35,839 nucleotides of DNA from Deltaproteobacteria bacterium (lineage in GTDB: Bacteria; Desulfobacterota; Binatia; DP-6): NCBI GenBank assembly GCA_005879795.1, contig VBKJ01000197.1, forward strand, positions 1 through 35,839, in the 5' to 3' direction. The position numbers and the translations under genes are program-made. Of this stretch, positions 23,536-26,198 are shown one piece after another (position 1 is the first letter of the stretch; each line of letters starts with the position of its first letter). The notes below the pieces were generated by a model. The model worked only from the letters and a program-made list of their open reading frames with translations. It was not told the origin of the DNA and made no database searches.

Positions 23536-24330
23536 CTAGCGCGCACCCACCACCTCCGCGATCAGCGCCAGCAGCCCCGCGTGCAGCACCCCGTTCGACG
23601 CGATCATCCCCGGCCGCAGAGTTTGCGGCTGGTTGAACCGGAGCGGCGCGCCCGCGAGGTCCGTCACCCTGCCGCCCGCCTCCTCGACGAGCAGGCTGCC
23701 CGCGCAGACGTCCCACTCGTTCTTGGGCGTGAGCGTGAAGGTCGCGTCGCCCGCCCCCGTCGCCACCTCGGCGAGCTTGTACGCCACGCTCCCCGTGAGC
23801 TTCACGCGCACGCGGCCCTTGAACCCGGCCCAGTCGCCGCGCTGATCCTCGGAGCGGCTCGCGAGCACGACCGCGTCGGGCACGCGCGCCGTCCGGCTGA
23901 CGCGCGCCGGTGCGCCGTTCACGGTCGTGCCCTGGCCGCAGACCGCGGAGTAGAGGCGATCGGCGGCCGGGTCGTACTCGACCGCGACCACCGGCCAGCC
24001 GTCCTCCACCAGCGCGATGCACACGGAGAACTCCGGGATGTGCTGGACGAACTCCCTGGTGCCGTCGAGCGGATCGACGACCCAGACGCGGCGTTTGGCG
24101 AGCCGCGTGCTCGAGTCGGCGGTCTCCTCGGAGAGCCAGCCGTCGTCGGGGAAGGCGGCGGCGACGAGCGCGCGGATGCGTGCGTCGGCCTCGAGGTCGG
24201 CCCTGGTGACCGGGTTGTCCGGCCCTTTCTCGGCCACGCCGACGCCGCGCTCGTAGTAGCGGCGGACGATCGCACCGGCCTCGTGCGCGGCGCGCTCCGC
24301 CAGCTCGCGCTCGCGCGCGAAGGTCGTCAT
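23536..24330 (-). CDS. inositol monophosphatase-family phosphatase, CysQ-like
   Basis: A 264-residue Mg2+-dependent, lithium-sensitive-type phosphatase. Metal ligands are visible: LSEET (Glu at about 68-69), [11 protein letters not shown] (Asp86, Asp89) and [17 protein letters not shown] near 208. The DPLDGT motif followed by REF, rather than NF, and the sequence [12 protein letters not shown] resemble the CysQ/3'(2'),5'-bisphosphate nucleotidase subgroup that recycles PAP from sulfate assimilation. myo-Inositol-1-phosphate remains possible. Its ATG overlaps the stop of the deoxyhypusine-synthase-like gene as ATGA, so the pair is one transcript. Confidence 0.88.
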
Positions 24331-25454
24331 CGGCGCGGCTTCACGCCCCCGTCGGGGCCGAAGTCGTGGGCCGCGCGGTACTCGCGCAGGAGCTCCGCCA
24401 TGAGCGCGTCGCGCCGTTCGTAGAGCCGCATCGGCTTGCGCGGGGGATGGTTGGCGAGGGCGTAGGCGGCGAGCAGCGGAAGCGCGATCGTCGAGTCGCA
24501 GTAGCAGACGACCGTGTCCGGCAGGCGCTCGGGGTCGACCTTGCCCCAGCTCACGGCCTCGCTCGGCGTCGCGCCCGAGAGGCCGCCGGTGTCGACGCGC
24601 GCGTCGGTGAACTGGATGTAGTAGTCGTGCCCCTTCTCCGCGATGCCGAGCACCTCCTGCACCTGCGGCTCGGTCTGGAGGAGGAAGTTCTTGGGCGAGC
24701 CCCCGCCGAGGATCAGCACGCCCGACTTGCCGCCCGCGCGCTTGGCGCCGAGCACGATGGCGGCGGTCTCGTTCACGTCGCGTGACACGTCGATCTTGAG
24801 CTTGCAGCCCTCGATGGCGAGCGCGGCCACGTTCATGCCGATCGAGCTGTCGCCCGGCGAGGAGGTGTAGACGGGCACGCCGTACTCGTACGCGGCGGCG
24901 ACGAGCGAGCGGCGGCTGAGTCCGAGCGCGCGCTGCCGCTCCGCCACCACGCGGCCGATCAGGTAATGGAACTCGGCGGTGCCCATCTCGCGTTGGAACT
25001 CGGGCGCGAACAGGATCTTCCGGTAGAAGGCGTCGGTGTCGAGCAGGACCTTGTAGTCGAAGACGATGTCGTAGATGCGGACGACCTCGTCCTTCCTGAG
25101 CACCACGTCGTTCAGGTCGGGCCGGCCGCGGTGCATGGTGAGGCCGATGCCGAAGTGCGTATCGTGGTAGAGGTTCGCCCCGGTCGACACGATCCAGTCG
25201 ATGAAGCCGGCCTCGATGAGCGGGATCAGGCACGACATGCCGAGGCCGGCGGGCGTGAGCGCGCCGCTCAGGCTGACCCCGATGGTCACGTCGTGGGCGA
25301 GGAGCTGGCGCGTGAAGAGCTGCGCCGCCTCGCGCAGGCGGGCCCCGTTGTAGGCGAGGAACGCCTTGTCGACGAGCTCGGTGATGCTCGTCCGTGGCGT
25401 CACCGGCGGGGGATCGATCTTCGTCCCCCGCAGCCACCGCTTAATCTCCCCCAT
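24327..25454 (-). CDS. deoxyhypusine synthase-like protein
   Basis: A 375-residue member of the deoxyhypusine synthase family, which uses NAD and spermidine to transfer an aminobutyl group. Visible are the NAD-fold blocks [16 protein letters not shown] and [31 protein letters not shown], and [14 protein letters not shown] with Lys255 at the position of the enzyme-imine lysine (Lys329 of the human enzyme). [22 protein letters not shown] completes the set. Bacteria lack eIF5A, so the usual protein substrate is absent. Bacterial homologues have been linked to polyamine chemistry such as homospermidine formation; that is inference here. GGAG at 25463-25466 (minus) precedes the ATG, within an extended -10-like TGC-TACGGA. 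Confidence 0.9.
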
Positions 25455-25504
25455 GGGCGCCTCTCCGTAGCATTCTCACGTCGATCGCAAAAGAGGAGAA
25501 GCGT

Positions 25505-25590
25505 CGAGAGCGCTCACGCTGGCCGACGGGGTCTGGGGGCATCGGAGCAGCGCAGCGGCCGCAGGGCGCGAGCAGCGCACGGGCCCCCAG
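25505..25590. repeat. 86-bp element, copy 1
   Basis: First copy of a direct repeat in the divergent gap between the deoxyhypusine-synthase-like gene and pgpA. Each unit starts CGAGAGCGCTCACGCTGG and ends CGGGCCCCCAG. Inside, CTGGGGGC and GCCCCCAG form an 8-bp inverted repeat around about 48 bases, and GAGCAGCGCA occurs twice directly. It differs from copy 2 at one base in the middle. No open frame of known function crosses it. Confidence 0.9.
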
Positions 25591-25609
25591 ATGTGTGGGA
25601 GGCCGAGCG

Positions 25610-25695
25610 CGAGAGCGCTCACGCTGGCCGACGGGGTCTGGGGGCATCGGAGCAGCGCAGCGCCCGCAGGGCGCGAGCAGCGCACGGGCCCCCAG
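25610..25695. repeat. 86-bp element, copy 2
   Basis: Second copy, displaced by exactly 105 bases from the first and separated from it by 19 unrelated bases. Only one substitution (CGCAGCGCCCG against CGCAGCGGCCG in copy 1) is seen, so the duplication is recent or kept uniform. The copy ends ten bases before the pgpA -35 box. Confidence 0.9.
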
Positions 25696-25704
25696 GAGTA
25701 TTGA

Positions 25705-25733
25705 TTGACGGACCGGGTGCGAGCCTCTACGGA
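25705..25733 (+). promoter_or_regulatory. candidate promoter of pgpA-cinA
   Basis: TTGACG (25705-25710) and TACGGA (25728-25733) are 17 bases apart. The second box ends six bases before the pgpA GTG, and there is no Shine-Dalgarno in between. The -35 match is five of six. Confidence 0.48.
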
Positions 25734-25739
25734 TCGGAC

Positions 25740-26198
25740 GTGGACACGCTCGCCATGGCGCTCGCGACGGTCGGGGGCGTCGGCCGCGTGCCGGTCGCGT
25801 CCGGCACGTTCGGGTCGCTGGTCGCCCTGCCCTTCCTTCCCGCCCTGGCCGCGCTCCGCGCCGGCTCGCTCGCGGGCTACGTGGCCCTGGTCCTCGGCAT
25901 CGTGGCCGTCGCCGTCTGGTCGGCCGGGCGCGCCGGACGCCTGCTGGAGGATCGCGACCACTCCCACATCGTCATCGACGAGGTGGCAGGCATGGTGCTG
26001 GCGGGCCTCTTCCTGCCCGGCACGTGGCTCGCGGCAGGGGTGGCGTTCGTGCTCTTCCGCCTCTTCGACGTCGTGAAACCGTTCCCCGCCAACCTGATCG
26101 ACGGGCAGGTCGAGGGCGGCCTCGGGGTCGTGGGGGACGACCTCGTGGCCGGGGCCTACGCGGGCCTCCTCGCCCGCCTCGTCCTGTGGCTCCTCTGA
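25740..26198 (+). CDS. pgpA: phosphatidylglycerophosphatase A
   Basis: PgpA removes the phosphate from phosphatidylglycerol phosphate at the inner membrane. The 152 residues carry the family motifs GRVPVASGTFGSLVALP, DHSHIVIDEVAGM with the acidic metal-binding residues, and LFRLFDVVKPFPANLID. Three or four hydrophobic helices (about 26-60, 80-100, 133-150) give the membrane anchor. GTG at 25740 is the best start; TTG at 25701 and ATG at 25755 are other in-frame choices. The TGA stop overlaps the cinA ATG by one base. pgpA-cinA linkage is common across proteobacteria. Confidence 0.94.
   Translation: MDTLAMALATVGGVGRVPVASGTFGSLVALPFLPALAALRAGSLAGYVALVLGIVAVAVWSAGRAGRLLEDRDHSHIVIDEVAGMVLAGLFLPGTWLAAGVAFVLFRLFDVVKPFPANLIDGQVEGGLGVVGDDLVAGAYAGLLARLVLWLL

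Follow-up and report, generated by a model that had tools for sequence, protein, structure and literature searches.

Between two divergently oriented genes in the 35,839 nt of DNA from a Deltaproteobacteria bacterium analysed here (the window) lie two nearly identical stretches of 86 nt. The question that this locus raises is whether these are spacer duplicated on the spot, a control element of the adjacent genes, or copies of something that moves. We consider it likely that they represent a head-to-tail double insertion of a non-autonomous, dispersed and structured mobile repeat, which is restricted, as far as searched, to one family of soil bacteria.

Anatomy and folding of the repeat unit

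The 86-nt copies (25505-25590 and 25610-25695, start-to-start spacing 105) are 99% identical with a single mismatch (25558 G, 25663 C), and the window contains a 21-nt segment of the unit twice, as opposed to no occurrence in shuffles. This duplication, its one-base difference and the internal direct repeat GAGCAGCGCA (in copy 1 at 25545-25554 and 25570-25579) are all present as the first-pass annotation had described them. Comparison with other copies in the genome of the window (G000) shows that the true unit exceeds 86 bp and measures about 100 bp. It starts with GGGAGGCCGAGCG (25597 in copy 2), which is common to most other copies in this genome, and continues along copy 2 through hairpin 1, a linker and hairpin 2 to a short AT-rich tail (Table 1). 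In copy 1 the 5' end is degenerate and one inner-stem pair is mismatched. Thirteen of the 19 bases between the 86-nt copies, formerly regarded as unrelated and as an argument against a tandem arrangement, are the start of copy 2; the linker between the copies is only ATGTGT (25591-25596), and they are arranged head-to-tail. The 8-bp inverted repeats CTGGGGGC (25533-25540 and 25638-25645) and GCCCCCAG (25583-25590 and 25688-25695) exist, but they form the base of the internal hairpin 2 and not the ends of the unit. The actual ends are GGGAGGCCGAG and the AT-rich tail, which show no inverted relationship to each other.

Table 1. Coordinates of the repeat copies, their substructures and the flanking genes in the window.
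Feature	Position	Strand	Evidence
Deoxyhypusine synthase-like (DHS) gene	24327..25454	-	PF01916, 232 bits
Copy 1 of repeat unit	25492..25590	+	R1 match 25489-25594, 86.8 bits; 5' end degenerate, lower stem of hairpin 1 lost, inner-stem mismatch at 25558
Hairpin 2 of copy 1	25533..25590	+	Sequence match, own-genome alignment, family covariation
Copy 2 of repeat unit, complete including AT-rich 3' tail	25597..25704	+	R1 match 25595-25711, 124 bits; tail bounds from empty-site alignment
Hairpin 1 of copy 2, GGCC-GAGCGC-GAGA-GCGCTC-(5 nt)-GGCC, GAGA loop	25601..25629	+	Helices 1 and 2 of alignment A2: double changes in 10/10 pairs
Hairpin 2 of copy 2, CTGGGGGC ... GCCCCCAG, internal loops, hypervariable inner stem	25638..25695	+	Helices 3 and 4 of A2: 96.9% and 99.3% of cells paired
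AT-rich tail GAGTATTGA, brought with the element	25696..25704	+	Missing from four empty sites
Presumed pgpA promoter TTGACG-N17-TACGGA, just outside the insert	25705..25733	+	TTGACG-N17-TACGNA conserved in five genomes
pgpA, start GTG 25740 or ATG 25755	25740..26198	+	PF04608, 125 bits

The hairpins are supported by covariation over 101 copies from 91 chosen loci. Standard pairs occupy 97.5% of the 2514 pair cells and double changes are seen in 19 of the 26 pairs; double-change cells number 324, whereas shuffling gives 96 on average and sliding of the partners 48 at the most. An alignment fitted to the model favours pairing, and related copies do not count as independent evidence, but some stem swaps, such as GAGCGC/GCGCTC to GACCGC/GCGGTC, are directly visible in the sequences. 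The interpretation as a structured repeat is thereby upheld, whereas folding of the single window copies, which had been proposed as a check, gave a weak result (sense-strand z of -0.58 and -1.54); the strong evidence comes from the family covariation instead.

G.T pairs outnumber A.C pairs by 159 to 11, and by 38 to 11 (binomial p 1.4e-4) if the two pairs in which U.G is common are left aside. This excess identifies the strand as written as the folding one, be it as RNA or as single-stranded DNA. Of the 136 copies scoring 40 bits or more, 125 are more stable on this strand, and 99 after shuffle correction, while both strands fold better than their own shuffles (mean z -3.3 and -2.8).

Rfam 15 gave no match above the gathering score in the window, and only a tRNA across 15 loci. 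A canonical intrinsic terminator was rejected, as the pattern scan reported no site at hairpin 2; its sole match, on the minus strand at 25499-25515, covers nothing but spacer and the degenerate start of copy 1. An integron attC site, considered because some tails read GTTRRRY, was likewise set aside, since no inverse core is visible at the other side of hairpin 2.

Distribution among genomes and genes

Copies in G000 and in six relatives (G001-G006) were found by DNA search of the genome combined with the covariance model R1, with at most 150 candidates scored per genome, and all counts are lower bounds. There are at least 36 R1 matches in G000, at least 36 in G004, at least 39 in G005, at least 21 in G006 and at least 13 in G002. 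A single 32-bit match in G003 was taken as chance, and no R1 match was found among the candidates scored in G001. The genome search thus agrees with the earlier reading as a dispersed repeat. Two head-to-tail copies are all that the window alone shows, which would suit ordinary spacer with a local tandem duplication; this explanation can hardly be entertained, as it is refuted by the at least 36 genome matches and opposed by the covariation and by an empty orthologous site. Spacer that occurs only here is ruled out on the same three grounds, and tandem expansion as the only process by the genome searches.

Matches at E<=1e-6 occur in five of the 58 genomes searched, all five from the same family and representing three genera; the other 53 gave no covariance-model match at this threshold. 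Elsewhere in the class, other families gave weak, partial DNA matches (E>1e-5); these are regarded as chance because the covariance model is silent there at E<=1e-6. Searches for spread on phages, plasmids or viral contigs gave no match. In a named collection, 15 of the 16 matching stretches originate from the 'Deltaproteobacteria bacterium' soil MAGs DP_3, DP_23 and DP_26, which we take to belong to Binatota/Binatia. The sixteenth (L066, QHWQ01000264.1, 46-162) is a 113-bit copy at a contig's extreme end; the contig was assigned to an Acidobacteria gp6 MAG of the same soil site, and the copy may reflect transfer, a chimera or mis-binning.

Many copies in G004 display a longer four-hairpin form of about 170 bp with two further 5' hairpins (e.g., L141, about 2320-2540), and traces of this extra 5' part precede some G000 copies (C129, C134, C147). 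Another abundant repeat, about 85 nt long and carrying GTAGTACC, was observed on C104 of G005 upstream of 45748 and also genome-wide in G002, with at least 30 matches, and in G006. It looks like a true GTAG-type REP; its motif is absent from the eight Y1 loci examined.

To describe placement relative to genes, 146 matches were reduced by a 35-bit cut, which dropped six, to 140 copies in 130 arrays, and the counts for 108 arrays leave out 17 that overlap a called gene and five with a missing neighbour. Gene starts, taken from our own codon-score caller, are approximate and stops are exact. The 108 arrays are distributed over 73 co-directional, 28 convergent and 7 divergent gaps, compared with 223, 17 and 45, respectively, among the element-free gaps (>=0 nt) of the same loci. 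The enrichment of convergent versus divergent gaps (Fisher p 6.5e-7) remains significant with each of the length cuts applied; across the repeat family, preference goes to convergent and co-directional gaps. The 3' end lies at most 16 nt from a convergent gene's stop codon in 45 of 53 cases, with a median distance of 4 nt, and the 5' end at most 16 nt from an upstream stop in 16 of 76 (median 52). Part of this proximity arises because the stop codon can be provided by the AT-rich tail itself; tails are 61% AT versus 29% in element-free gaps. Where the downstream gene is on the same strand, 25 of 55 copies are found at most 16 nt from its start.

Among the 122 copies with an anchorable hairpin end, some lie 5-13 nt before start codons, and together with the conserved structure this could be understood as a cis-regulatory leader RNA, e.g., a riboswitch, controlling the downstream gene. 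Such a function is highly improbable. Ten tested neighbours are functionally unrelated (rpmC in the S10 operon, lpxD, guaA, murG, cdsA, ftsH, argS, rpiB, mreC and an ABC-2 permease, some of these names being our own reading of Pfam domain and sequence), copies occur in both orientations relative to genes, no Rfam match exists, and relatives with the same gene have empty sites. A riboswitch in particular is largely refuted by the diversity of neighbours and by the inversions.

In the S10 operon of G000 (L119, 2430-2600), a copy is located between rplP and rpmC, 9 nt before the latter. A frame starting MKGRELRK precedes this copy and resembles the start of L29, and rpmC now begins after the element. 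At C89:68297 of G005 and C318:1143 of G006, the end of the element lies directly upstream of a strong promoter-like TTGACA-N18-TATAGT.

Filled, empty and shared sites

The divergent setting reported for the window copies is confirmed by Pfam matches, with the DHS gene on the minus and pgpA on the plus strand. This divergent pair is retained in G002, G004, G005 and G006, in which DHS is 76-88% identical and the distance between the genes is 82-87 nt, versus 285 nt in G000; model R1 found nothing above 11.2 bits in these four gaps. G001 and G003 have only distant DHS relatives, so that the comparison comprises four relatives. The alignment places the insert between ...CAAAAG and TTGACGG, and hence between conserved -35-like motifs, i.e., between two presumed promoters, with neither gene broken. 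A consensus promoter scan of the window did not report the presumed pgpA promoter. The site is consequently empty in all four relatives that keep the gene pair at high identity, as expected from the first-pass annotation for a mobile repeat; as these four genomes span two genera, a gain in the lineage of G000 is the favoured explanation. A binding site serving both genes had also been suggested; because the four relatives keep the pair without the element, it is not a conserved operator of the DHS-pgpA pair. The direct local effect of the insertion would have been an increase of about 200 bp in the distance between the two divergent promoters.

Filled and empty orthologous sites, which the same annotation had named as proof of mobility, were found not only here. 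Two copies are present at murG in G000 and none at the murG loci of the six other genomes, and a copy on C106 of G005 separates two stop codons; G006 lacks this copy, and there only about 2 nt lie between the stops. A presence/absence difference at L241 (G006) looks like a deletion, and a truncated copy was found on C199 of the same genome.

Ten of 34 G000 copies have a counterpart in the same syntenic gap of another genus. The syntenic partner is the nearest copy in only one of 12 tested pairs, and six of 45 syntenic pairs are inverted, a pattern that is better explained by replacement, or by copies entering favoured gaps repeatedly, than by slow vertical descent. Domestication may have occurred at some sites. 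The gap before cdsA holds a copy in G000 (C212:15819), G002 (C9), G005 (C94) and G006 (C403), with the opposite orientation in G000.

An alternative would be a domesticated gene-junction RNA, whose copies arose by mobility and were kept since the folded RNA, after a stop or before a start, sets mRNA processing, stability or translation. This is in accordance with the compensatory changes that maintain pairs on one strand, with the prevalence of convergent over divergent gaps (28 to 7, versus 17 to 45 in element-free gaps), with the 10 of 34 copies shared between genera and with the copy 9 nt before rpmC. We regard it as rather unlikely, however, given that copies occur in both orientations to genes, that syntenic pairs include inversions (6/45) and seldom nearest copies (1/12), and that the window copy lies outside both presumed transcripts.

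Probable mobility and relation to known repeats

The mobile repeat, which remains our likely interpretation, could not be connected to a mobiliser in its own genome, and the unit itself encodes no protein. Domain searches of G000 gave no match to a Y1 transposase, a reverse transcriptase (RVT_1), the TnpB zinc ribbon or IS110, and RAYT, reverse transcriptase, TnpB and IS110 were rejected as its mobiliser there; the TnpB zinc ribbon had no match in any of the seven genomes. Flank-shared k-mers, compared for target-site duplication in 122 copies, have a mean of 4.89 versus 4.72 in control pairs, which is no excess. With neither terminal inverted repeats nor a target duplication above control, the unit gives no support to a MITE in the strict sense, one of the two labels initially considered. 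MITEs (ERIC, Correia and NEMIS types) are small, non-autonomous, intergenic and structured, and this repeat resembles them in these respects. Elements derived from IS200/IS605, and HEARO or omega RNA, combine a structured single strand with a short AT-rich junction motif and lack a target duplication. The same combination is found here, but with no Rfam match, no TnpB zinc ribbon in seven genomes and no Y1 in G000.

The other initial label, REP, is not supported in the strict sense either: no GTAG stands at the hairpin foot, the alignment of 17 own-genome copies having no conserved GTAG, and no Y1 transposase was found in G000. A strict REP or BIME moved by a RAYT (Y1 tyrosine transposase) is accordingly very unlikely, even though the placement rules are those given for REPs in PMC3733652 and the four relatives with the element have one to seven Y1 matches each. 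G001 has two Y1 matches yet no element was found in it, and eight Y1 loci of relatives contained no convincing copy (best 18 bits).

According to that source (Di Nocera et al. 2013, PMC3733652), REPs of the GTAG and CGTC super-families are high-copy palindromic repeats of co-directional and convergent gaps, at most about 20 bp from stops. They are single hairpins of 20-40 bp whose ends can supply a stop codon; the CGTC REPs are without a dedicated transposase, and their units are mostly head-to-head dimers. Our repeat is similar in its placement in co-directional and convergent gaps close to stop codons and in an end able to supply a stop codon. It differs in its length of about 100-170 bp, its two to four hairpins, its head-to-tail arrangement when doubled and the lack of a GTAG tag or short CGTC stem-loop. 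The CGTC-type layout (CGTC tag, 8-9 bp stem, 4-5 nt loop, short CCA-like tail) is not found in the unit; CGTC is present on the opposite strand in the linker, outside such a layout.

Closest in modularity are the BOX repeats of Streptococcus pneumoniae, which PMC3049150 characterises as modular, strongly folded, dispersed, enriched in convergent gaps and transcribed within operons. Modularity, folding, dispersal and convergent-gap enrichment are shared by our repeat, while sequence and host differ. The BOX authors state that no easily comparable empty site was found; here empty sites exist, and covariation extends over more than 100 copies. A literature search on REP/RAYT, Binatota, MITEs, intergenic repeats and structured RNA, covering few subscription journals, yielded no description of this repeat family among the entries listed. 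It falls under the definition of no named family, and we file it as a new one that works like REP and BOX repeats.

Dispersal may proceed by means of a trans-acting enzyme, located outside the element and not found in G000, that would recognise the folded single strand (ssDNA or RNA) and join its AT-rich 3' tail to the target DNA. Copies that break genes would be lost, and survivors would remain beside stop codons, start codons or, as in the window, between divergent promoters. The hairpins of transcribed copies probably influence how the mRNA is processed or translated locally. Several observations count against this likely scenario of a mobile repeat. If copies spread freely and at random, fewer than 10 of the 34 G000 copies should share a syntenic gap with another genus; called genes are overlapped by 17 of the 130 arrays; and certain sites that differ in presence or absence (L241) resemble deletions. 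Movement itself was not seen among the species-level genomes compared, and G000 gave no match to Y1, reverse transcriptase, TnpB or IS110.

A further-reaching proposal, which we deem decidedly unlikely, is that of a mobile gene punctuation: a small element spreading via its own folded single strand, independent of the searched mobiliser classes, and re-entering the same gene junctions in either orientation, where it would supply a leader before a start or an end after a stop. Small dispersed repeats without a known mobiliser, such as CGTC REPs and BOX, are a long-standing puzzle. The family described here unites strand-specific covariation, gene-junction placement, clean empty sites, and gain or loss between close genera. 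Annotation is affected as well, since copies are found within operons (S10, murG) and can shift where gene starts are predicted; and with this family, the question of which enzyme moves such repeats can be addressed on concrete material.
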